Assembly (NCBI GenBank): GCA_964023275.1
Contig: OZ029922.1
Location: forward strand, 2,479,034 to 2,543,033
DNA: 64,000 bases
Direction: 5' to 3'
Source of the DNA: Norana najaformis
Lineage: Eukaryota; Annelida; Clitellata; Crassiclitellata; Hormogastridae
Made by a program: the position numbers and the translations under genes. Shown one piece after another: positions 725-31,265 of this stretch. Positions within the stretch are counted from its first letter, which is position 1, and every line of letters begins with the position of its first letter. The notes under the pieces are model-generated. The model was not told the origin of the DNA. It searched no databases and saw only the letters and a program-made list of their open reading frames with translations.

Positions 725-1135
725 ATAGCATACCACACTACACTACACTACATTATATCACACCACAATATACTATGCTATACCATACCACAATATACTA
801 GACTATACTCTGCTATATTATATTACACCACAATATACTTTATTATACTATGCTATATTATACCACACCACAATATACTATACTATACTCTGCCATATTA
901 TACCACAGCACAATATACTATACTATGCTATATTATACTACACCACAATATACTATACTATGCTATATTATACCACACCACAATATCATACTATACTATA
1001 CTATGCTATGCTATGCTATGCTATATTATACCACACCACAATATATTCTGCTATACTATACTACACTATGCTATGCTATGCTATATTATACCACACCACA
1101 ATATACTCTGTTATACTATACTATACTATAGTTAC
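725..1135. repeat. CTATA/CCACACCA minisatellite
   Basis: A degenerate array built from CTATACTATG and TATTATACCACACCACAATA type units. It lies just downstream of the receptor exon on the minus strand. Long open frames across it are only periodic tyrosine/threonine translations of the repeat. Confidence 0.9.
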
Positions 1136-1169
1136 TAATCAAATAGTAAAGAGATTCGATTGAGTATAC

Positions 1170-2259
1170 CTTCGTAGGGAGCCGTTGAATCGTATGCCGC
1201 CCATACGTGTGAAATAAAGAACGGTCCCCAGCAGATGACGTAAGACAGATTAACGCTCATCGACAATTTAATCGTGCGCATCTTGGCCTTTGAGATGACC
1301 TTGACATTTGACCTCGGCGCAACGACCGTCTCCATCTTCTGGACCGGCAAGCTCAACCGTCTACGCTTCCTCTCCCTCTCTCTCGGATCGCTCGAGCCGC
1401 GCCGCGACGACGCGCTACCGAAGTAGCGACTCGACTCGAGCTTTGACGAACAGGTGCGCGTCGTCGTCATCGTCGTCATGGAAACGACAGACGCACGCTC
1501 CTGGCAACAGACGCTCCGCCAGACGGCGCGGCAGACCTGGACGTAGACGCCGAAGAGGATGATGGCCGGAAGGAAGTAGATGGCAGCAGCAGTCCACGAG
1601 ATGTACACGGTCAGCGTCCACTGTGGATCGAAGACGGCCCAGCAGCTGAACAGTCCGGAGTTCGACGCCACCTCGCGGTAGGCGAACACGACCGTCTGCG
1701 GCGAGGCGAATAGCAGCGACACGGCCCAGGCGACTAGGACCAGCGTCCGCGAACGGGCGGCCGACCAGGTGTGGGACAGGAGCGGGCGACAGATGGCGTT
1801 GTAGCGGTCGACGGCCGTGGCTAGGAGGACGTACGAGGAGGCGAACATAGCGACGAGCTGGAAGTACGCCACTCCTCGGCAGAGGAAGTCATTGCCGCGA
1901 AACAGTCCGGTGACGTCCCAGAGGAGCTGAGGGAGGACGTTGAAGAAAGCGACGAAGAGGTCGGCGGCTGCCAGGTGTCCGATCATCATGTTCATCCGAT
2001 TGAGCTTGTGGCAACGACGGCCGAAGCGCAGGACGAAGAAGACGAGGCAGTTGCTCGACAGAGCGACGCTGAAGATCACAGACTGAACGCCGATCTCGAC
2101 CGATGCCAAATACTCGTCACGGTTCAGCAGACCGTACCAGGCGGAACTCGTCCGGTTCAGCGGGACTTCCGCTTCCTGTCCCAGCGACGTCCAGTTGCCT
2201 CTTGCTGGACTGGTCAGTCTCGGCCAAGGACCGGTCACTTCTAAAACGCCCTCGGGCAT
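1170..2259 (-). CDS. Vasopressin/oxytocin-type GPCR, 5' coding exon (TM1-TM6)
   Basis: This exon encodes the first 363 residues of a class A receptor expected at the plasma membrane, where the family binds vasopressin/oxytocin-like nonapeptides and signals through G proteins. Two N-glycosylation sites (N22-W-T, N35-R-T) precede TM1 (about 54-78). TM2 (about 92-115) has L-A-A-A-D-L; Cys127 and Cys206 are placed for the TM3-ECL2 disulfide; D151-R-Y ends TM3; TM4 holds the Trp/Pro pair; C343-W-G-P lies in TM6. The Q-L-L-W-D-V-T stretch after TM2 and S-C-W-A-V-F in ECL2 resemble vasopressin/oxytocin receptors. The third intracellular loop is long and Ser/Arg-rich. Reading stays open only 8 codons past a strong donor (AAG|GTATAC) at 1169, just before TM7, where vertebrate vasopressin receptor genes also carry an intron. 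The TM7 exon must lie left of position 1. The start is the only Met before TM1. Confidence 0.85.
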
Positions 2260-2352
2260 CTTTCAGGCTCTCGAGTCTGAAAATGACCAATTTATAGTAC
2301 ATTTCTTTCTTTTTTTGTCCACGGCCGTTTTTTTGTTGCATAGCACAATGAG

Positions 2353-10451: not shown

Positions 10452-10925
10452 CGATTTTGTAAAGAAAACCCAGTCCACTCTTTAAACGATGTCTTTGGCA
10501 AAACTAAAATGTCATAATAAGCTTTATTTATGGCTAATTATAATTCTTGCTGATTCATATAATGCCTACATCCTTATAATGTAAAATCAGCATATCTTGC
10601 CGCGTGCTGAGATATTGCTGATTCAACGAAATAACTATTCCGTAGCCTACAGCTTACTCAGCACTAAATTCATGGCCTCATTTAGAATTTATTTGTGCTT
10701 ATACAGCGTTTCATGGTTTCGAACTATGTAAATAGATTATGCTGAAGTCAGCATTTATAGCCTATATAAACCGCCTCCTGAAAGCTAGAGCAGCCGCAGT
10801 CGTCTTAGGGCATATTAAGAGTTGGTCGCAAGAACAATCTGTGAATGTGAGCATTAAATAACTACATGTTCTTACTATTTTTAGGTTAGTCATTTAATTC
10901 CTCAGATGCGAACATCCTTAAGGTT

Positions 10926-12629
10926 ATGGCTACTTCCAGACGGAGCTGCATTAACCATCCAGACATATTCTGCTACATTTGTGGGGAATACACACTAAAA
11001 GCAAACAGGAAACCGATTTCTGAGTTTGTAAAAAGAGCATATGTAGGTTATTTTGGTGTCAAACTTGGAGATCAAGATAAGCAATGGGCTCCTCATACAG
11101 TATGCAAAACTTGTATTGAACAATTGCGCCACTGGACAATTGGAAAGAGAAGCTGCCTGAAATTTGGTGTACCGATGGTTTGGAGGGAACAGAGAAACCA
11201 CTTCGACGACTGTTACTTTTGTATGGTTAATATCATAGGCATCAATCGAAATAATCGTCACAAGTTGTCTTACCCTGATATACCTTCAGCCAGGAGACCT
11301 GTTCCGCATTCGGATATTGTACCAGTTCCACCTTTTCGCGAACTACCTCAGCTCTCAGACGATGAGACTTGCATGTCCAATATCGGACAAGATGACGAAA
11401 GTGAAGAAAGTGGGGGCAGTGACAGTGATTTCCAATCAACTTCACACAGTGAACGTTTTGACCAAAAAGAGTTGAGTGATCTGATCAGGGACTTAAATCT
11501 TTCCAAAGAGTCCTCTGAATTGCTTGCGTCCAGACTAAAGGAAAAGAATGCACTTCAGCCTGGAACAAAAATTACAATTTATAGAAACAGAGAAAAGGAT
11601 TTGCTGCCATTCTTTACCGAAGACAACAACCTAGTATTCTGTAATGACATCAGCAACTTATTGAAGAAAATTGGTCTGTCGGATTACAGCCCAGATGAGT
11701 GGCGTCTTTTTATCGACAGTTCAAAACGTAGTCTGAAATGTGTGCTTTTAAATAACGGCAACAAATTTGGTTCTATTCCAATCGGTCACTCCACCAGGAT
11801 GAAAGAAGAGTACAATGCCATCTCTTTAGTACTGGAAAAGATAAAATACAAAGAACATCAATGGGTAATTTGTGTAGACTTGAAGATGGTAAATTTCCTC
11901 CTTGGTCAAAAAAGTGGCTACACAAAGTATCCCTGCTTTTTGTGTCTTTGGGACAGTAGAGCCAAGCATGAACATTGGACAAGAAAAGATTGGCCTTCGA
12001 GGAAAGACATGGTGGTTGGAGCTCAAAATGTAATCAAGGAATCTTTGGTGGCACGAGATAGGATCATACTGCCACCACTACATATAAAGCTAGGCCTGAT
12101 GAAACAATTTGTCAGGGCTTTGAATAAAGAAGGTTCATGCTTCGAATACATAGTACACAAGTTACCAGGAATTACAATGGAAAAATTGAAGGCTGGAATC
12201 TTCGATGGTCCACAGATCAGGCAACTTATGAATGACCCACTTTTCATACCATCAATGAATGAAATCGAATCTTGTGCCTGGTCTTCCTTTGTTCTTGTAA
12301 CTAAAAATTTTCTTGGCAACAAGAAGGCAGACAATTATGCACAACTAGTAGAGGATATGCTTCTTCATTTCAACAAGCTTGGCTGCAACATGAGCATTAA
12401 AGTCCATTATCTCCACAGTCACTTAGATCGCTTTCCAGAGAATCTTGGTGACTTCAGCGAAGAGCAAGGTGAAAGATTTCACCAAGACATCAAAACAATG
12501 GAAAATCGATATCAAGGAAGATGGGATGCACACATGATGGCAGACTATTGCTGGAATATTATGCGCGATTGTTCCGGCAGATGCCACACTCGGAAATCGT
12601 ACAAAAGGAGCTTCTTCGGTGTCGAATGA
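10926..12629 (+). CDS. Chapaev3-like transposase
   Basis: A 567-residue open frame, probably the DNA-cutting and strand-transfer enzyme of the surrounding element. The N-terminus has Cys pairs C16/C19, C60/C63 and C96/C99, suggesting zinc-binding DNA recognition, and the block M-V-W-R-E-Q-R-N-H-F-D-D-C-Y-F-C is one I remember from a multicopy, intronless invertebrate family. An acidic Ser-rich linker covers about 140-185. The C-terminal part contains W-V-I-C-V-D (Asp318), C337/C340 in Y-P-C-F-L-C, L-H-I-K-L-G (386), and E-E-Q-G-E-R-F-H (Glu516), followed by R-Y-Q-G-R-W. Asp318 and Glu516 are candidates for members of an RNase H-fold catalytic triad; this is inference. A pyrimidine stretch ending TTTTTAG at about 10884 may be a 3' splice site before the start. 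No frameshift or stop is seen. Confidence 0.8.
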   Translation: MATSRRSCINHPDIFCYICGEYTLKANRKPISEFVKRAYVGYFGVKLGDQDKQWAPHTVCKTCIEQLRHWTIGKRSCLKFGVPMVWREQRNHFDDCYFCMVNIIGINRNNRHKLSYPDIPSARRPVPHSDIVPVPPFRELPQLSDDETCMSNIGQDDESEESGGSDSDFQSTSHSERFDQKELSDLIRDLNLSKESSELLASRLKEKNALQPGTKITIYRNREKDLLPFFTEDNNLVFCNDISNLLKKIGLSDYSPDEWRLFIDSSKRSLKCVLLNNGNKFGSIPIGHSTRMKEEYNAISLVLEKIKYKEHQWVICVDLKMVNFLLGQKSGYTKYPCFLCLWDSRAKHEHWTRKDWPSRKDMVVGAQNVIKESLVARDRIILPPLHIKLGLMKQFVRALNKEGSCFEYIVHKLPGITMEKLKAGIFDGPQIRQLMNDPLFIPSMNEIESCAWSSFVLVTKNFLGNKKADNYAQLVEDMLLHFNKLGCNMSIKVHYLHSHLDRFPENLGDFSEEQGERFHQDIKTMENRYQGRWDAHMMADYCWNIMRDCSGRCHTRKSYKRSFFGVE

Positions 12630-20132: not shown

Positions 20133-22195
20133 AGGCGTTATAACCCCCTCAAAGTCCGATCTACACCTCATCGTGGTGAGGGGGTGAAAACAGTCAAGTA
20201 GGGGAATGCCTGCTGGGGCTAAGCCATCAGTGGTGAAGGTCTTGACCGAAGTATCACCTTGGGCGCTACGCGAGGTGGACAGGCCCAGCAGGAACCCTGA
20301 AACAGCTGGCTAACGTAGACGGCAACTGTCTTGGATGTGACGTTAAAACATCCAGAGCCATGGGCAGCAGCACGGCTCTCATCGACAACTAGCGGAAGAG
20401 ATGTACAGATACATCCAACGGTGGTTGCCGAGTTCATGACGAGGCGTATGCTGGGTTCAACTCGGTATAACGGCGAGTCAACTGCAGGATCAACAAGAGA
20501 TTGGGGTGCTCAGTTGGTCATATAACCCCATAGAGCATGAATGGACAAAGCGACAGTCGAACCAGAGAGGGTGAATGAAAGATGGAAAGAATATTGCGAG
20601 GAATTATACAATGACGGAAATGTGAACGTAGTGATTAACATCCCAGAAATGGAGCCTCCTCCACTGAAAGAAGAAATCAGACGGGCCCTACTAAAATCAG
20701 CTACACTTAAAGCACCTGGTCCCTATGACATAGCTGCCGAACTGTAAAGGTTTGGTGGGGAAATGACACTGGCCAAGCTGCATGAGATCTGTGTGAAGGT
20801 GTGGAAGACAGGGGACTGGCCAGAGGAATGGACACAATCGATCTTCATTCCTCTCCCTAAAAAAGGGGACTTGCTCCGTTGCGAGAATTACAGAACTATT
20901 GCCTTAGTCTCGCACGCTAGCAAAATTCTACTGAGAGTTATTCTAGAGAGGATACAAACTAAGCTTGAAGACGAGATTGCTCAAGAGCAGGCGGGGTTTA
21001 GACCAAGAAGAGGCACAAGGGATCAGATTACAAACCTCAGGATCATATTGGAGAAATCTAGAGAAAGAAGTCAACCACTGTACCTCTGCTTCATTGACTT
21101 TACAAAGGCCTTTGACATGGTACAACATGATCAGCTATGGCTAACCATGCTTGAAATGGGTTTTCCACCACAACTGGTCCAACTGTTAAGAAACCTCTAC
21201 AGACAACAACGCGGTGCAGTCAGGACAGATCGTCTCGTGTCTGCATGGTTCAGTGTCAAAAAAGGAGTCCGGCAGGGATGTAATCTTTCGCCCTGTCTGT
21301 TCAACATATTGGCAGAACAAGTGATGCGGAAGGCACTACAAGGATATAATGGAGGTTTCAGAATCGGTGGCAAGATCATCAGCAATCTCAGGTACGCAGA
21401 TGACATCGTCTTATTGGCCACATCACCAGAACAACTGCAGGAGTTAGTAAACCGTGTTGAGAATGCTGCAAATGAGTATCATATGCTGATCAATGCAAAA
21501 CAGACGAAAGTGATGACAAATACAGGCGAAGCACTTGAGATCGACGTGGTTGATGGAAGACTGGAGAAGGTGGACTACTTCATGTACCTGGGGAGCAGAG
21601 TAGCAGTGGATGCGGACTGTACGGTTGAGGTGAAATCGAGACTAGCCATGGGAATGGCAGTCATGGTTAAGCTCACAAAGATGTGGAAAAACAAGTCACT
21701 TAGCATCAAGACCAAATTACGCCTGATGAGGGCCTTGGCATGGCCGGTGGCGACATATGGGTGTGAGGCCTGGACATTAAAGAAGGAAGAGGAGAGACGC
21801 ATTCAGGCTTTTGAAAACAAGTGCGTCAGAAAGTTACTGCGGATTGCCTGGACAAAGAAGATGACCAATGAACAGGTGTACCAACTGGCTGGGGTGCAAA
21901 ACGAGCTGCTGGGTCACATTAAGGCCCGCAAGTTGCGTTATTTCGGGCACGTGATAAGACATCCTCAGGACACCATCGAGAGTAGTGTTATGATCGGTCT
22001 TGTTGAGGGGAACCGAGGCCGCGGAAGGCCAAAGATAAGTTGGATTGACAACATCTCGGCATGGACTAGCTTGTCGGGAACCAGGTTGTTGGATGCTGCG
22101 CGCAATAGATGGCTTTGGTCGAAGACGATCCTATCATGTAGTCAACCGTCGCGACGCGACGATGACGAATTGACATGACATGACAGGCGTTATAA
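20133..22195 (+). mobile_element. RTE-like LINE insertion with target duplication
   Basis: The insert (20144-22184) lies between two copies of AGGCGTTATAA (20133-20143, 22185-22195), an 11-bp target duplication. It begins with a leader containing CACCTCATCGTGGTGAGG and ends in a TGACA-type tail, as RTE-like elements end in short repeats. The leader passes directly into the region just before the reverse transcriptase, so the endonuclease domain is missing. The target lies inside a GGCGCTATAAAAGTCTTC-like end motif of an older repeat. Confidence 0.75.
20541..22178 (+). pseudogene. LINE reverse transcriptase, one stop codon
   Basis: The frame runs from W-K-E-Y-C-E-E-L-Y through the RT to the end, broken only by TAA at 20745-20747, where relatives read A-E-L-L-K-x-G-G-E. 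Downstream 471 codons are open: P-L-P-K-K-G-D, Y-R-T-I-A-L, E-Q-A-G-F-R-P-R-R-G-T, the first catalytic Asp in C-F-I-D-F-T-K-A-F-D, V-R-Q-G-C-N-L-S-P, and R-Y-A-D-D-I-V with the catalytic Asp pair. A C-terminal W-T-K-K-M-T-N-E-Q-V, Y-F-G-H-V and G-R-G-R-P-K block and a final D-D-D-E match RTE-type proteins. With no endonuclease and a stop, this copy cannot move by itself. The clade is assigned from memory of motifs. Confidence 0.8.
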
Positions 22196-23869: not shown

Positions 23870-24010
23870 AATCTAAAATAAACTAATCGAATCTACTGAT
23901 TTCTATAGCGCCATTATCATAATGCATAAGGCATCAATCCACGGTCGGTTTAAATGAAACCATAGTCAAAATCATAATTTTTTATAGAATAGCTCAGCGT
24001 AGAATAAATA
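23870..24010 (-). repeat. CR1/L2 family B, 3' piece
   Basis: Inverted end CTAATCTAAAATAAACTAATC, TTTCTATAGCGCCATTATCA and GCATCAATCCACGGTCGG. It lies in the intron between E4 and E3. Confidence 0.55.
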
Positions 24011-24253
24011 TAGTAGGCTGTGGTCGGTTGATCCCGATCGAAGGAGCGCTTAGCCACTAATAAATAACTGAACATGGTTTCAGTGGTAAAGTCTCATTAA
24101 TTATGTTGATAACTCAAAATTTTCAAACTCGTATAATATTAGTCTAACAAGTTTTATGGTTTCTGTAAGTAAGTAATGTATTTGTTTCCCGTTATCAGTT
24201 GTCTAATCAGCTGAATTTGACTGATCCATTTTAAACTTTTCCTGTCAAAATAC

Positions 24254-24456
24254 CTATCATGTGATAATTGAAACAGCTTACTTGACAATGCCTTTCTTAT
24301 CCTTGTACACACTCTTTTCCTTGTCTGATCAAAGTTTTCATTGGTGAGCTTATGGTCGTATTCGATCGACAGGTGCAAACCAGCAACAGATCTTGTCACA
24401 TAACGAACAATTTTCACATAGACCATCTTTTTGTCATCTTCTCGCAAATGCGACCT
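24254..24456 (-). CDS. TIR locus exon E3 (C-terminal part of TIR domain)
   Basis: 203 nt between TTTCAACACAG and GATAG|GTATTT, open throughout. It reads D-D-K-K-M-V-Y-V-K-I-V-R-Y-V, then L-S-I-E-Y-D-H-K-L-T-N-E-N-F, which fits the last strand and helix of a TIR fold (a conserved hydrophobic strand after a charged turn). Decayed relatives lie at 25540-25745 and 29060-29265. Entry phase is 0 while E2 exits in phase 1, so a small intermediate exon is missing or unrecognised, or this gene is broken here. Confidence 0.55.
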
Positions 24457-24539
24457 CTGTGTTGAAATAGAAATAGATAACATCATGAAATATTTTCATT
24501 ATTAACAGCAATTTACTTACTGTTTTGTTTTTTGAATTT

Positions 24540-25150
24540 TGCAGATCCTCGCTCAATTTTATATACTCATATACTCATAGAATCAAATCACGTTTGCCTC
24601 AGGCTGTCCTAATCCCATTAGCTAATGCATTGGTTTCCATCAAAATTGACTACTGTAACTCACTTCTTATTAGCATCACTAGGAGAGATCTGCACAAACT
24701 ACAGATGGTTCAAAATTATCAAAAAGCCACACCAAACCTTCAACAAGAACACTGGTTGTCCAACGAGCAAAGAATCCAGTTAAAAATTTGTCCTATGGTT
24801 CACAAAATATACAATACATACCGACATACCTATATCCCATTTTCACCCCTTGTATCAACATATACTGCACTCAATAAACGGACACAACGACTCTTGTTGT
24901 GCCTCGTATTAGTCATAGGTGTGGTTTTCTGTAAGAAAGTAATGCATTTGTTAAATGGACACAGCGACTCTTGTTGTGCCTCGTGTCAGTCATAGGTGTG
25001 GTTTTCAGGCATTCTCTGTAGCTGATCTCAGCTTGCCAAGTTCTATTCGTTCTGTTCTTCAGGTCCAAGCTTAACTTCTTTCAATATGTTTATCCACTAT
25101 AGCCTAACTTTTGGATTCGCCAACCTATCTCAATTCGACCTGAACACAGA
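24540..25150 (+). mobile_element. CR1/L2 family B ORF2 C-terminal region
   Basis: The plus strand reads R-L-P-Q-A-V-L-I-P-L-A-N-A-L-V-S, K-I-D-Y-C-N-S-L-L and R-D-L-H-K-L-Q-M-V-Q-N, the usual block after the RT core in CR1/L2 elements. Frame breaks follow. A later S-K-L-N-F-F-Q-Y-V-Y-P segment near 25075 is the terminal motif. It sits between exons E3 and E2, on the opposite strand, exactly where the TIR model lacks a segment. Confidence 0.7.
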
Positions 25151-25239
25151 CTAATTAATATAACCCAAAAATAACGAAATATTTGTAGCTAAAACACCTG
25201 GTTACCCACTAAACCCATTCGATGCATAATTTTACTTAC

Positions 25240-25341
25240 CGTTGGCACACCAGAGACTTCTGTCGAAATCTTTCGGTAGAATGCACAAGCAGATTACGGA
25301 CATCTCTATAGCTCCCGCGAGCTCAAAATCCAGCGTATAAT
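25240..25341 (-). CDS. TIR locus exon E2 (middle of TIR domain)
   Basis: 102 nt between ATTTACAG and ACG|GTAAGT. Entered in phase 1 from E1 it reads D-Y-T-L-D-F-E-L-A-G-A-I-E-M-S, then V-I-C-L-C-I-L-P-K-D-F and S-L-W-C-A-N. This is the TIR segment after the BB loop: an amphipathic helix, the core strand ending in a Pro, and the W-C motif. In NAD-cleaving TIR proteins the catalytic Glu follows shortly after W-C; here the exon ends at that point. Only one copy is found although E1 has five. Confidence 0.65.
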
Positions 25342-25539
25342 CTGTAAATATAACTACTTTTAAAGATTTTCCCTTAAATGTAATTAAAATTTATACAATA
25401 TAATACAATATAAATGTTGGTAGATTACTCATTGTCTGAATGTCTATCTACTGAGCCAACACCAATTTGCACTTAGAAGTCTGTGCAGGATATGCGTTTG
25501 ATTGGTCGTAGTATCTATATCCGCTGTTCATGGCCGATG

Positions 25540-25745
25540 TCATTCGCAAGACTGTCCTCAAAATACCTATCATGTGATAATTCAAACAGCTTACTCGATT
25601 ATGCTTTTCTTTTCTTTGCGAGAACATTTTCCATCATGTGCTCAAAATTTTGATTAGTCAACTTATGGTGGTATTACTTCCTTATGTAAATTTAAAAGGT
25701 TCAGCATTTGGTGCTTCTGCGGTCTACTGACGTATCTGTCTATAA
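25540..25745 (-). pseudogene. Decayed E3-like exon, cassette 1
   Basis: Matches E3 over the part encoding Y-H-H-K-L-T-N-Q-N-F-E and S-K-L-F-E-L-S-H-D-R, but frameshifts and stops break it. Its donor-like GATAG|GTATTT is kept. Confidence 0.55.
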
Positions 25746-25915
25746 ATATAACTATGGTCCTATATTAGGGGATGAGGCTAACGATAACTAATTACAACTA
25801 ACAGTCACGACATCAAAATGAATAATAACTATAACTGAAACTTCACTACTAGTGCATTATACAACGGCGCTATAAAAGTAGAAAAATTGTAAATTTATAT
25901 TTAAATTTCATTTAC

Positions 25916-26024
25916 CAATATCGTGCTCGTCCAAAAATGTTGAGATCTGGTGCCTTTGCAGGTACTGGACTATTCGTCGTGCCCATTCACGATCTGATGA
26001 GCTGTGACTGACGAATACCGACAT
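25916..26024 (-). CDS. TIR first coding exon, copy E1e
   Basis: 109 nt between TGTCATAG and TTG|GTAAAT. ATG is the first codon of the exon. It reads M-S-V-F-V-S-H-S-S-S-D-R-E-W-A-R-R, then a helix and F-L-D-E-H-D-I, matching strand A, helix A, strand B and the start of the BB loop of a TIR domain. It exits in phase 1, fitting E2. It is the copy closest to E2. Confidence 0.7.
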
Positions 26025-26480
26025 CTATGACAAATTACAAGTAATTTTGATTAAAGCCAAATTAGCCACCGATGACTCATTCAGAATCCATGGCAGTAAT
26101 CAAAGGCAGTCACAACAGCCCCAAATATCAATACGGCCAACAACGCGTAAGCTGATCTCCCTGGCTAGCCATGAACAAAACTGATGGATATATAGCATCA
26201 GGAAAGGTTGATTTAAATTAAAATGAAGCTATTTTAAAAATGAACAAAATTATGGACTGTTAAGACACCCAAAACAACTTTAACAAAAACTATAACTAAA
26301 ACTGAAATGTTCTAGCTTTAATAACTATAACTAAAACTTGAGAAATAACGATAACTAATTACAACTAACAGTCACGACATCAAAATAAATAATAACTATA
26401 ACTGAAATTTCACTACTAGTGCATTATACAACGGCGCTATAAAAGTTGAAATTAAAAATATCTATTTAAATTTTATTTAC

Positions 26481-26589
26481 CAATATCGTGCTCGTCCAAA
26501 AATGTTGAGTTCTGGAGCCTTTGCAGGTATTGGTCTATTCGTCGTGTCCATTCTCGATCTGGTGAGCTGTGACTGACGAATACCGACAT
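26481..26589 (-). CDS. TIR first coding exon, copy E1d
   Basis: Same borders and length as E1e. It reads M-S-V-F-V-S-H-S-S-P-D-R-E-W-T-R-R and ends F-L-D-E-H-D-I. Differences from E1e cluster in helix A; the L-D-E-H-D-I end is unchanged. Confidence 0.65.
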
Positions 26590-26923
26590 CTATGACAAAT
26601 TACAAGTAATTTTGATTAAAGCCAAATTAGCCACCGATGACTCATTCAGAATCCAGGGCAGTAATTAACGGCAGTCACAACAGCCCCAAATATCAATACG
26701 GCCAACAACGGGTAAGCTGATCTCCCTGGCTAGCCATGAACAAAACTGAGGGATATATAGCATCAGGAAAAGTTGATTTAAATTAAATTGAAGCTATTTT
26801 CAAAATGAACAACATTATGGACTGTTAAGACACCAAAAACAACTTTAACAAAAACTATAACTAAAACTGAAATGCTCTAGCTTTTAAGAACTATAACTAA
26901 AACCAAAACTTGAAAAATAACGA

Positions 26924-27142
26924 TAACACTCACGACATCAATTTGGGACTTAGCCACATCTTTTTCAGCTTGAATTCTTCTACACGTGCTTCTTCCGGTG
27001 TAATTGTAGCACACTTGATGCCAACGCTGTGCTTAAGAATAGCACTTGCAGCGTCAATGGTCACCTGGTCACTGGTGGCGTCTCGGTGAGGTAGACCAAG
27101 ATTAAAGTAGAGGGCTTCCACAACTAACACTCACGACATCAA
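26924..27142 (-). pseudogene. Isocitrate dehydrogenase fragment inserted in the TIR array
   Basis: The minus strand of 26942-27124 reads [16 protein letters not shown], then [16 protein letters not shown] and K-L-K-K-M-W-L-S-P. This is the highly conserved N-terminal region of NADP-dependent isocitrate dehydrogenase around the K-C-A-T-I-T-P motif. It lacks the G-T-I-R substrate loop that follows in the enzyme. The insert is bordered by 18-bp direct copies of TAACACTCACGACATCAA (26924-26941, 27125-27142). About 60 residues remain open, which suggests recent capture. It may be a partial retrocopy or a repair-patch insertion. Confidence 0.75.
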
Positions 27143-27252
27143 AATAAATAATAACTATAACTAAAACAGATAACTAAAACTTCACTACTTGTGCATTATA
27201 CAACGGCGCCATAAAAGTTGATATTATAAATATATATTTAAATTTTATTTAC

Positions 27253-27361
27253 CGATATCGTGCTCGTCTAAATAGGTTGATACATTGCGCTTTTGGAGGT
27301 ATCTATCGATACGATGGGCCCATCTGCTGTTCTTTGAGCTGTGGCTCAAAAAAACCGCCAT
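27253..27361 (-). CDS. TIR first coding exon, copy E1c
   Basis: 109 nt with the same splice borders. It reads M-A-V-F-L-S-H-S-S-K-N-S-R-W-A-H-R and ends Y-L-D-E-H-D-I. It belongs with E1a (M-A-V-F-L type), whereas E1b, E1d and E1e are M-S-V-F-V type. Confidence 0.7.
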
Positions 27362-27645
27362 CTATGACACATTACAAGTAATTCTGATTAAAGCCAAATT
27401 AGCCACCAATGACTCATTCTGAATCCAGGACAGTACTCTCAAAGGCAGTCACAACAGTCCCAAATGTCAATACGGCCAACAACGGGTAAGCTGGTCACCC
27501 TGCTATGCTATCCTCCGGAACGCGATCGAAATCTTACAGCAAAGCAAAAGGCAACCACACTTAAAATGCAACCTTTCAAAACTATTTCGTGATTTTACCG
27601 ACCTTCTATCCTAATATTTCTTGGTCTAAACCTTTGCTACCTTAC

Positions 27646-27860
27646 CTTCGCCGGTTTTATTCACATCAATTTTCATTTATATTTAACGTTTAGCAGTTTA
27701 TCCAAGGTTTTAAATACGAAATAATACACACCCTTACGTCTAACAAAAGCAGAACGATCCAAGAAACTTTTGCACTCCCCACGTGACCCCTTACTAAACT
27801 TTTCATTGGCCGAGAGCCCAGGTCACAGGACCAATGATATATATCCAAAGATTATCAACC
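27646..27860 (-). promoter_or_regulatory. Upstream cassette 1: possible promoter and 5' UTR exon
   Basis: Minus-strand reading passes GGATATATATCATTGG (TATA-like), a CCAAT-containing stretch (GGCCAATGAAAAG), and about 130 bp later CGGCGAAG|GTAAGG, a good 5' splice site 285 bp before the E1c acceptor. Nearly the same block recurs at 30416-30620, and its outer part at 31015-31085. Conservation across copies supports function or recent duplication; transcription is not shown. Confidence 0.4.
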
Positions 27861-27861
27861 A

Positions 27862-28655
27862 TAAATTACCGTAATTAATCGTAATCTCGAGATTTCCACA
27901 GCGTCTTACGAAAGCTAAGTTGCGGGAACTAGATTATTCACAAGCGCTCAGTCAAAACAAAATCGATAGGCAAAAGGGTTCGGTTCCAGGTCAAGATCCA
28001 GAAGCCAAGCAGTCAGACAGTCGGAAGGCTACAGTGCATGGTGTTTGAAACTGAAGGGAGACGAGAGGTAAGATAAAGAGGAAGGCTCAGAATAAGATGT
28101 CTGGAAATGTGTTCAGTTTTGAGTGAAAGACTAGGGCAGAAACTGAAAGAGATGCAGAAACTGAAAGAGATGAAGTGTTGGTGCGATGGATCAGACAATT
28201 GTCGTAATTCTGGCGGGAGGTTTTTCCAGATGGGTGGGCAGCTATGGTTATGGGGCGATTTCCAAATTTTAAGGATGAGGTAACGGGAGGGTGAAGTGCT
28301 AAGGCAGACGAGCAGCGGGTTGAATGGAGTGGTTGGATTATAAATAATTGACAAAGATAAGAGGGTTGAGAGGACTGAAGTGTGTTGTAGGTAAGGGATT
28401 CGACTTTGTACTCTATTCGTTCAGGTATTTTATGCCAGTGAGGTGACAAGAACAGGAATCATGTGATGGTGTTTGGGAGTTTTGGCGACAGCTTTGGTGA
28501 ATAGCTTGAAGGCTGTTTATTTGAGTGGTATCTATACTGAGGAAAAGTGTATTACAGAAGTCTAGTTTTGCATGCACTATGGATTTTACAATGGTAAATG
28601 CAGTTTTGAAGTTAAGCATAGGGCAGATTCTGCGAGGGTCGCGGATGTGCATAAA
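27862..28655 (-). mobile_element. CR1/L2 family A, ORF2 C-terminus and 3' end
   Basis: The minus strand reads R-I-C-P-M-L-N-F-K-T-A-F-T-I, A-K-L-D-F-C-N-T-L-F-L, then I-P-E-R-I-E-Y-K-V-E-S-L-T-Y and S-Y-L-C-Q-L, the classic L2 order, ending V-F-H-S-K-L-N-T-F. Frames shift between blocks. The 3' end has TCGATTTTGTTTTGACTGAG and CTCGAGATTACGATTAATTA. It is the longest family A copy here. Confidence 0.8.
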
Positions 28656-28859
28656 GCAAGAGCGGGAAAGATGAGTTGTATGATCAGAAAAGGTGAAGTT
28701 TTTGTCGAATATTAGGCCTACACCTAAATTGCGGACAGAAGATTAAAGGTGTGGGGGGAGGCAGAGTCCAGGCTGAGGGAGACAGAGGGGTCAGAAATTT
28801 TCTTGAGCTAGTCGCGTAGGCCAATAAATATGGATGTGATTATCATCAGTAGAGCAGAA

Positions 28860-29060
28860 ATCAAGGCTCCGAATCACGCTGTCACGAGTCATCGAGGGTC
28901 CGAGGCTTCGACTCACGCTGTTCAAAGCAGCTCTAAGCGTAAACAGAGTGCAACTAAATCCCAGCCAGTGGCCCCGGTACATTGCATTAATAAAAACACT
29001 TGTGGCGGAAGGGTGGACGTCACAAATCGAGATGCAGAATTTCCACTGTTCATGGCCGAT
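28860..29060. repeat. Duplicated flank of TIR cassettes, copy 1
   Basis: Shares GTAGAGCAGAAATCAA, the stretch CCCGGTACATTGCATTAATA continuing into AAAACACTTGTG, and CGAGATGCAGA with 31130-31265. It borders the decayed E3 of cassette 2. Confidence 0.6.
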
Positions 29061-29265
29061 GCCATTCGCAAGACTGTCCTCAAAATACCTATCTTGTGAT
29101 AATTCAAACAGCTTATTCGATTATGCTTTTCTTTTCTTTGCGAGAACATTTTCCATCATGTGCTCAAAATTTTGATTAGTCAGCTTGTGGTGGTATTACT
29201 TACTTATGTAAATTTAAAAGGTTCAGCATTTGGTGCTTCTGCGGTCTACTGACGTATCTGTCTAT
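29060..29265 (-). pseudogene. Decayed E3-like exon, cassette 2
   Basis: Very close to the piece at 25540-25745, with the same disabling changes, so the decay preceded the cassette duplication. Confidence 0.55.
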
Positions 29266-29437
29266 AAATATAACTATGGTCCTATATTAGGGGATGAGGC
29301 TAACGATAACTAATTACAACTAACAGTCACGACATCAAAATGAATAATAACTATAACTGAAACTTCACTACTAGTGCGTTATACAACGGCGCTATAAAAG
29401 TAGAAAAATTGTAAATGTATATTTAAATTTCATTTAC

Positions 29438-29546
29438 CAATATCGTGCTCGTCCAAAAATGTTGAGATCTGGTGCCTTTGCAGGTACTGGTCTATTCATC
29501 GTGCCCATTCACGATCTGATGAGCTGTGACTGACGAATACCGACAT
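29438..29546 (-). pseudogene. TIR first exon copy E1b, with a stop
   Basis: Nearly identical to E1e and with intact splice borders, but codon 17 is TGA where E1e has CGA, a CpG-type change. It encodes M-S-V-F-V-S-H-S-S-S-D-R-E-W-A-R and stops. Confidence 0.7.
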
Positions 29547-30022
29547 CTATGACAAATTACAAGTAATTTTGATTAAAGCCAAATTAGCCACTGATGACTC
29601 ATTCAGAATCCATGGCAGTAATCAAAGGCAGTCACAACAGCCCCAAATACCAATACGGCCAACAACGGGTAAGCTGATCTCCCTGGCTAGCCATGAACAA
29701 AACTGAGGGATATATAGCATCAGGAAAAGTTGATTTAAATTAAAATGAAGCTATTTTCAAAATGAACAACATTATGGACTGTTAAGACACCAAAAACAAC
29801 TTTAACAAAAACTATAACTAAAACTGAAATGCTCTAGCTTTTAAGTACTACAACTAAAACCATAACTTGAAAAATAACGATAACTAATCACAACTAACAC
29901 TCACGACATCAAAATAAATAATAACTATAACTAAAACAGATAACTAAAACTTCACTACTTGTGCATTATACAACGGCGCCATAAAAGTTGATATTATAAA
30001 TATATATTTAAATTTTATTTAC

Positions 30023-30131
30023 CGATATCGTGCTCGTCCAAGTACGTGGATACATTGTGCTTTTGTAGATATCTGTCAATACTCCTCGCCCATTTTCTGT
30101 CCTTTGAACTGTGGCTCAAAAAAACCGCCAT
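30023..30131 (-). CDS. TIR first coding exon, copy E1a
   Basis: 109 nt, same borders. It reads M-A-V-F-L-S-H-S-S-K-D-R-K-W-A-R-S and ends Y-L-D-E-H-D-I. It is nearest to upstream cassette 2, which supplies a 5' splice site at 30415, 285 bp upstream. Confidence 0.7.
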
Positions 30132-30415
30132 CTATGACACATTACAAGTAATTCTGATTAAAGCCAAATTAGCCACCAATGACTCATTCTGAATCCAGGG
30201 CAGTACTCTCAAAGGCAGTCATAACAGTCCCAAATGTCAATACGGCCAACAACGGGTAAGCTGGTCTCCCTGCTATGCTATCCTCCGGAACGCGAGCGGA
30301 ATCTTACAGCAAAGCAAAAGGCAACCACACTTAAAATGCAACCTTTCAAAACTATTTCGTGATTTTACCGATCTTCTATCCTAATATTTCTTGGTCTAAA
30401 CCTTTGCTACCTTAC

Positions 30416-30620
30416 CTTCGCCGGTTTTATTCACATCAATTTTCATTTATATTTAACGTTTACCAGCTTATCCAAGGTTTTAAATACGAAATAATACCTA
30501 CCTTTACGTCTAACAAAAGCAGAACGATCCAAGAAACTCTTGCACTCCCCATGTGACCCCTTACTAAACTTTTCATTGGCCGAGAGCCCAGGTCACAGGA
30601 CCATTGATATATATCCAAAG
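30416..30620 (-). promoter_or_regulatory. Upstream cassette 2: possible promoter and 5' UTR exon
   Basis: Near-identical to 27646-27860, with the same TATA-like and CCAAT stretches and the CGAAG|GTAAGG donor. The spacing to its E1 copy is the same. Confidence 0.4.
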
Positions 30621-30639
30621 ATTATCAACCATAAATTAC

Positions 30640-30958
30640 CGTAATTAATCGTAATCTCGAGATTTCCACAGCGTCTTACAAAAGCTAAGTCGCGGGAACT
30701 AGCATATTTACAAGCGCTTAGTCAAAACAAAATCGATAGGCAAAAGGGTTCGGTTCCAGGTCAAGATCCAGAAGCCAAGCAGTCAGACTGTCGGAAGGCT
30801 ACGGTGCATGGTGTTTGAAACTGAAGGGAGAAGAGAGGTAAGGAAAAGAGGAAGGCTCAGAATAAGATGTCTGGAAATGTGTCCAGTTTTGAGTGAAAGA
30901 CCAGAGCAGAAGAGGGTTGAGAGGACTGAAGTGTGTTGTAGGTAAGGGATTAACGTCT
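30640..30958 (-). mobile_element. CR1/L2 family A, 3' end
   Basis: Same junction with the TIR upstream block as the copy at 27862 (ACCGTAATTAATCGTAATC), but with the middle deleted after CAGAAGAGGGTTGAGAGG. It is a shared ancestral insertion. Confidence 0.7.
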
Positions 30959-31014: not shown

Positions 31015-31265
31015 GCATGTGCGTGACCCTTTACTAAACTCTTCATTAGTCCAGCGCTCAGGTCACATGACCAATGATATATATGCACCGGACCCCTACC
31101 ACAGATTATATTATAGGCCTACGTAGAGTAGAAATCAAAACCCCGAATCAGAGCGTAAGCATAGTGCAACTAAAGCTCCCAGCGAGTGGCCCCCGGTACA
31201 TTGCATTAATAAAAACACTTGTGACGGAGGGATGAATTTCACATTTCGAGCTGCAGAGTTTCCTC
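31015..31265. repeat. Third, partial TIR cassette edge
   Basis: 31021-31085 resembles the outer part of the two upstream cassettes (CCTTTACTAAACTCTTCATT, ACCAATGATATATAT). 31130-31265 matches the flank at 28860-29060. No E1 exon is attached, so at least one further duplication with loss is implied. Confidence 0.5.

Follow-up and report, generated by a model that had tools for sequence, protein, structure and literature searches.

The window analysed here is a 64,000-nucleotide (nt) stretch of the annelid Norana najaformis (assembly GCA_964023275.1, contig OZ029922.1, positions 2,479,034 to 2,543,033), lying on the contig that we call C10; the genome searched comprised 608 Mb in 17 contigs. 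On the minus strand, the window holds a TIR-domain locus in which a short first exon (E1) occurs five times ahead of one second exon (E2) and one full third exon (E3). The exons, exon relics and duplicated blocks are as follows, in the direction of transcription within each group.

30023-30131 (-): E1 copy B2 (MAVFLSHSSKDRKWARSIDRYLQKHNVSTYLDEHDI), 109 nt, open, phase 0 to 1
29438-29546 (-): E1 copy A3, 109 nt, with a TGA stop at codon 17
27253-27361 (-): E1 copy B1, 109 nt, open
26481-26589 (-): E1 copy A2, 109 nt, open
25916-26024 (-): E1 copy A1, 109 nt, open
25240-25341 (-): E2, single copy, 102 nt, phase 1-1, joined to E1 in phase 1
24282-24456 (-): E3, single full copy, 175 nt, with an internal frame change relative to its relatives
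29080-29197 (-): second E3 relic, with a stop, downstream of A3
25558-25675 (-): E3 relic, the 3' part of an E3 with a stop inside, between A1 and E2
29889-30911 (-): second copy of the B block, 95.5% identical to 27119-28141
27119-28141 (-): B block, 95.5% identical to 29889-30911
29301-29894 (-): second copy of the A block, 95% identical to 26346-26936
26346-26936 (-): A block, 95% identical to 29301-29894

The five E1 exons had been proposed in a first-pass annotation of the sequence, with a common acceptor, an initial ATG and a GTAAAT donor, and all were found where it had placed them. Both splice sites are kept in all five copies (TAG directly before the ATG, GTAAAT directly after the last exon base), and four copies are open, the exception being that at 29438. 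The annotation was also right that E1 leaves in phase 1, matching the single E2, and that two copies in series would shift the frame, E1 being 109 nt long. The copies fall into two lineages, A (25916, 26481, 29438) and B (27253, 30023); the A1 and A2 blocks are 94% identical, and the natural reading is that an A-B segment may have been duplicated once, followed by one more tandem copy of A. The last codons of E2 encode WCAN, followed by the opening base of the codon for the E of WCxxE, and E3 is bounded by a strong acceptor in front of 24456 and a GTAAGC donor at 24281.

To the Pfam profile TIR_2 (PF13676), positions 1-69 aligned with residues 3-69 of every open E1+E2 join (4/4; E values of 4.7e-10, 2.7e-11, 7.5e-10 and 1.3e-12; 39.8-48.7 bits against a curated cut-off of 28), A1 giving the best join (1.3e-12) and B2 2.7e-11. 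The match ran unbroken across the splice join in each case, as expected from the annotation's claim that E2 continues the TIR fold. As controls, two of the five E1 copies were searched by themselves and scored 2.1e-6 and 1.2e-7, and E2 with seven E3 residues scored 0.059 to TIR_2 and 0.016 to PF01582; E2 is thus weak by itself, and joining the exons improves the match. On contig C9 (below), two genes likewise gave E1+E2 joins above the cut-off, with 28.6 and 39.2 bits. Among PDB sequences, no match to the TIR joins reached 0.001: in one search annexins came best (0.015), and in a second Cat1 came first (0.0082), with plant TIR proteins and a Toll-like receptor among the matches after it. The WCAN+E encoded across the E2/E3 junction agrees with the end of the weak Cat1 match (E 0.0082). 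The glutamate of WCxxE is the catalytic residue of TIR NADases, and the one encoded here is a candidate counterpart.

The divergence between E1 copies was concentrated in the exon. B1 and B2 differed at 46 positions, 18 of 109 in the exon against 28 of 914 in the flanks (Fisher 1.8e-7), the flanks being free of mismatches for 68 nt on the upstream side of the exon and for 134 nt on the downstream side; the densest 80-nt stretch held 18 mismatches, a density reached in 0/20000 permutations. The exon substitutions were confined to exon positions 24-93, which fits the annotation's remark that helix A varies while the start of the BB-loop is constant. Twelve of the 18 fell at third positions, and six amino-acid differences were observed against a neutral expectation of 12.3 (0/4000 simulations as low). 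The near-identity of the flanks extends through repeat-derived sequence also present elsewhere in the window, and the profile along the unit has lesser bumps outside the exon, of up to 6 per 60. All six A-B pairs showed the exon excess (p 1.9e-4 or less), a synonymous distance beyond measurement by NG86 and amino-acid differences below the neutral expectation. Where measurable, the synonymous divergence (dS) of E1 was 0.6-0.9, with few amino-acid changes. The exon lineages A, B1 and B2 thus look much older than their surroundings and appear to have been under protein constraint, and the recent A copies appear to drift.

In a genome search with E3 as the query, relatives were found on contigs C9 and C4, and their layouts were read from fetched stretches. 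The family has an E1 of about 109 nt, an E2 of about 102 nt and an E3 of 177 or 180 nt. Junctions read by eye were in phase 1, except at the E2 donor of C9c, where phase 1 would need a GC donor.

C9a: nine E2+E3 units of ~1041 nt plus partial units, one E2 with a stop and one E3 truncated, with no E1 found in 19 kb upstream of the array; also a separate E1-E2-E3, its E3 with a stop
C9b: E1, E2 and E3 intermingled, in two, five and nine copies respectively; two E3 copies incomplete
C9c: E1, E2 and three E3, one of them truncated
C9d: three E3, two of them partial (10 kb seen)
C9e (C9:26491475-26502575): one E1, one E2 and then twelve E3 in ~818-nt units, all twelve without a stop
C4: nine units of E1-E2-E3, each 2.2-3.0 kb long, with an extra E3 and some partial ones besides

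This family multiplies single exons and not just whole genes: E1 five times in the window, and E3 three times, E3 twelve times and E2+E3 about nine times elsewhere. The C9e array is the mirror image of the window array, and the window exemplifies a tendency of this TIR family to form exon arrays. E1 begins with an ATG at the exon start in C9a, C9b and C9e, and not in C9c or C4. A search with the C9a E3 found a stop in 2 of 19 matches. In a list of 27 exons from the relatives, 25 were comparable, the 15 on C9a, C9b and C9c being 177 nt and the 10 on C9d and C9e 180 nt; of the remaining two, one was unrelated and one (C4) used another donor. This list and the one behind the C9e intron comparison below admitted only exons whose length was a multiple of three or exactly 180, and so cannot reveal broken exons.

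The exon-confined divergence was repeated at these loci. In between-lineage pairs (E3 of C9c, C9e and C9b; E2 of C9a and C9b; E1 and E2 of C4) the exons were 13-29% different and the 150-nt flanks 1-7% where alignable. Exon and flank mismatches, with nonsynonymous divergence (dN) and dS, were 39/177 against 3/298 for C9c E3 (dN 0.13, dS 1.0), 30/180 against 4/292 for C9e E3 (0.07, 0.86), 29/177 against 8/298 for C9b E3 (0.10, 0.52) and 23/105 against 10/299 for C9a E2 (0.065, 2.5); C4 E1 had 22/102 against 5/300. Of eight E3 pairs, the three that involve 27419435 gave weak contrasts (p 0.01, 0.002 and 0.06), their upstream flanks, not the downstream ones, ceasing to be homologous. Within-lineage pairs in the comparison of C9a/C9b E2 and C4 showed little or no contrast. 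In whole-unit divergence profiles the main peaks stood at the TIR exons, with lesser bumps elsewhere (in C9c at 23951671-23951797, 6 and 5 per 60).

Exons and introns also differed in their kinship. The C9e copies labelled V6 and V9 have identical exons, and their downstream introns are 9 mismatches apart (the maximum of the matrix is 10); the V6 intron is nearest that of I3, at 3 mismatches. Across these introns (~635 nt), V and I copies differed at 3-10 positions and I copies among themselves at 0-8, against 30 and 0 in the exons. Because intron kinship departs from exon kinship at C9e, exon and intron lineages are uncoupled there. Among the C4 units, units 1 and 4 have identical E3 (0/189) and different E1 and E2; within the E3 of units 1 and 3, just the first part differs.

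A misassembly, with haplotypes laid in tandem or arrays collapsed, was considered for this pattern. Heterozygosity in marine invertebrates can reach the ~3% range, and the 3% flank divergence falls within it; on the other hand, the pattern repeats at unlinked loci and in three different exons, and we regard such an artefact as quite improbable.

The change in divergence is abrupt at the splice sites. For nine chosen pairs, mismatches numbered 12/180 and 7/180 in the 20 nt outside the two exon ends (one C9b E2 pair with an indel inflates the outside count, 9 of 20), 31/180 and 27/180 in the 20 nt inside, and 205/883 in the exon middle. A mutation process aimed at exons would account for this step, and is very improbable: changes were mostly at third positions (12/18 in B1/B2, 22/29 in C9e), which would need long site-by-site selection. 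Hypermutation was set aside, the changes being mostly synonymous.

Neither a slow gradient nor simple conversion by a distant donor fits this step well. Exon-confined ectopic gene conversion, in which a diverged TIR gene elsewhere donates exon sequence in tracts that end at splice sites, would explain old exons in young introns and their sharp edges, and the B1/B2 tract (24-93 of 109) does lie inside the exon. Nevertheless, it would need many separate origins, and in three of the five E3 pairs laid out the differences reach to within 2-4 nt of both exon ends, which is not readily given by conversion inside a short exon. No donor was found in the genome with an A-type E1+E2 query (E up to 10), which returned the five window E1 and E2 and two distant single-exon TIRs (31% and 28%), a search that found the B copies at 59-65% identity and missed the more distant E1 exons of C9. 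We consider this explanation unlikely.

Two stretches of non-coding sequence are conserved at the locus.

26025-26039, 26590-26604 and 29547-29561 (-): start motif TGTAATTTGTCNNAG before the ATG, exact
27362-27376 and 30132-30146 (-): the same motif with one mismatch
24058-24281 (-): intronic stretch from the E3 donor, ~69% identical to C9a, C9b and C9d

Followed directly by ATG, the exact motif occurs six times in the genome, each time at an E1 start (C10, C9), and its reversed control had one match. The E1 starts of C9c, C9e and C4 lacked the motif, as did five fetched E1-like exons drawn from partial PF13676 matches (below); a search allowing one mismatch gave 45 matches against 56 for the reversed control and is uninformative beyond the exact matches. 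A genome search with 23980-24265 gave six matches including the query itself, all beside E3 exons. This conservation bears on the idea that the duplicates are old, with introns held by very strong constraint and exons changing at synonymous sites. The ~220 nt after the E3 donor remain ~69% identical between C10 and C9a/C9b, despite E3 proteins just 26-29% identical to that of C9a, and the start motif is conserved at four E1 settings. Set against this, the V-I introns of C9e are hardly further apart than the I-I introns while their exons differ as given above, and the B1/B2 near-identity runs through repeat-derived sequence; the idea is improbable.

Based on the sequences, we propose that the multiplied exons may be cassettes of which each transcript uses one, that selection keeps these different and exchange homogenises the introns, and that the window array is decaying; whether this reading holds we regard as evenly balanced. 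In each transcript, a single cassette from the array would be spliced to the single copies of the other exons; at the window locus, five alternative first exons would feed one E2. Use of a single cassette per transcript is suggested by layout and phase, with the frame not enforcing it for arrays of E2 (102) or E3 (177/180), which are multiples of three. Selection on the protein would keep distinct cassettes apart over a long time, and unequal exchange or gene conversion would repeatedly homogenise and reshuffle the introns around them; old exons would lie in young introns because selection holds the former distinct while the latter are homogenised. As to why exchange should stop so close to the splice sites, our guess is that it is limited by mismatches. 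Alternative first exons had been one of two suggestions in the first-pass annotation, and the TIR match across the join, the ATG at E1 starts of other loci, the confinement of the exact start motif to E1 starts, the purifying selection between lineages and the E3 arrays elsewhere speak for exon cassettes. If so, this would be a clean case for how exons keep old identities amid homogenised introns.

Several observations weigh against this reading. Copy A3 carries a stop. None of the three A-A pairs showed an exon excess (p 0.21-0.75), and their differences look neutral, five of seven changed codons altering the residue; a comparison of dN and dS between E1 copies, which the annotation had suggested, points to constraint in the B1-B2 and A-B pairs and not in the A-A pairs. 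The window E3 matches the E3 of the relatives, which have the same kind of start after the same kind of acceptor; read from its strong acceptor it gives EVAFARR and then a stop, the remaining TIR fold being in another frame. The one site that would restore the frame is a weak AG further downstream (score -2.2, which on a rough scale beats 41% of AGs), with loss of part of helix C. At 175 nt against 177 or 180 nt in the relatives, with the change adjoining a run of five A, the window E3 as assembled is broken relative to them. No E3 tried matched any Pfam TIR model alone, and E1 alone was below the TIR_2 cut-off at C9e (no match), C9c (17.8 bits) and C4 (17.9 bits). The same protein is encoded by 9 of the 12 C9e E3 copies, and little variety therefore comes from that array. 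Docking/selector RNA pairing was looked for between the E2 region and the E1 flanks and not found: all ten duplex energies were within those of dinucleotide shuffles (z -0.81 to 0.81), and 17-nt complements between E2 and the B introns are for that reason taken as chance. The exon/intron contrast itself was measured at loci of the TIR family only.

Some of these points favour the annotation's other suggestion, serial decay, which is a serious rival at the window locus even if we hold it to have less than an even prospect. Whole TIR genes would have been duplicated in tandem and most E2 and E3 deleted, the extra E1 being debris with one or none in use. The A3 stop, the E3 frame change and the neutral A-A differences fit this, as do an isocitrate dehydrogenase fragment inserted in the array and the E3 relics with stops among the E1 copies, from which it follows that duplication once extended beyond the E1 exon. 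Yet serial decay predicts equal rates in exon and flank, and in B1/B2 and all six A-B pairs the differences are in excess in the exon and change few amino acids; moreover, every E1 copy keeps both splice sites, and a single-exon array with intact frames exists at C9e. The annotation's two suggestions thus each found evidence; the E3 frame problem, the two E3 relics and the exon/flank contrast go beyond it. The window copy is probably partly broken, and the array is likely on its way to decay.

More tentatively, and less likely than not, the cassette reading could be extended to a germline system for a signalling domain, with exon arrays at all three positions of the TIR family, ancient exon lineages reassorted between near-identical intron frames, and new TIR domains arising by exon exchange and splicing choice. 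Were this true, immune diversity, usually sought in sensing parts, would sit exon by exon in the TIR signalling domain; any immune role would be part of the same inference.

Clustered protocadherins join alternative tandem first exons to a common part. In the UGT1A type, homologous first exons likewise stand in tandem and are each joined to a shared downstream part (PMC9013439). The window resembles it in sequence layout, with homologous tandem first exons that have start codons and a common downstream exon, and differs in that its variable exon, 109 nt long, ends within the first third of the TIR fold, and in that E3 or E2+E3 is the multiplied part at other loci of the family. Mutually exclusive single exons in tandem arrays at several exon positions are described for the Dscam type (PMC3364881). 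Single-exon tandem arrays, more than one arrayed exon position and an E1 that is not a multiple of three are shared with it; unlike Dscam, the arrays here concern a signalling domain, occupy several loci and not one gene, include exons (E2 and E3) that are multiples of three, gave no sign of docking/selector pairing in the ten duplex tests above, and have introns nearly identical between copies. In the major histocompatibility complex (MHC), introns are homogenised around an old exon 2. Exon trees of MHC genes disagree, indicating exon-wise histories (PMC12674619). Exons with separate histories and old exon lineages in younger surroundings are common to both, whereas here there are exon arrays within a locus and dN/dS is well below 1. 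The oyster has expanded TIR and MyD88-like genes in tandem clusters and is similar in having many TIR genes so arranged, that expansion being described gene by gene, without exon-level arrays, in the available part of the report (PMC4346834). Among the papers listed in literature searches on TIR with tandem or alternative exons, TIR expansion with gene conversion, TIR-only expansion, and TIR arrays and splicing, one of them on sea-urchin IL17, no such layout was found.

A genome search with PF13676 gave 66 matches, many of them single-exon TIRs outside the three-exon family; it detected just three of the five window E1 copies and so cannot serve as a census. Another eleven matches were partial, restricted to the beginning of the profile, and lay on C1, C3, C5, C9, C10 and C17. 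Other tandem clusters with TIR in single open frames were seen at C8:1586593-1636755, C14:18027017-18049364, C5:24367916-24393511 and C3:48634663-48743447. The E1 unit was considered as a mobile element and rejected: of 27 matches, five were the window's own units and the other 22 were merely 46-62 nt each, within query positions 264-386 at the downstream end. An Rfam scan of window positions 23900-30400 and of two C9 loci gave no matches, and no relative was found in the viral contigs searched.

Upstream of the B copies lies a promoter-like repeat in three copies (27782-27868, 30552-30638 and 31022-31108), two of which are followed by leader-type donors (27731, 30501), both common to the B blocks. 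The isocitrate dehydrogenase fragment (26942-27118, -) is a 59-codon open piece of an NADP-dependent enzyme between B1 and A2 (PDB match 2.2e-25; Pfam Iso_dh below cut-off), flanked on both sides by the 18-nt TTGATGTCGTGAGTGTTA; the sister block is without the insert. Elsewhere in the window, an open frame at 1135-2262 (-) matched vasopressin V2 and oxytocin receptors, with a 7tm_1 match; a 579-codon frame at 10890-12629 (+) with a weak zf-AD match below cut-off may derive from a mobile element; and 20748-22178 (+) is a LINE-type reverse transcriptase frame (RVT_1 2.1e-37).

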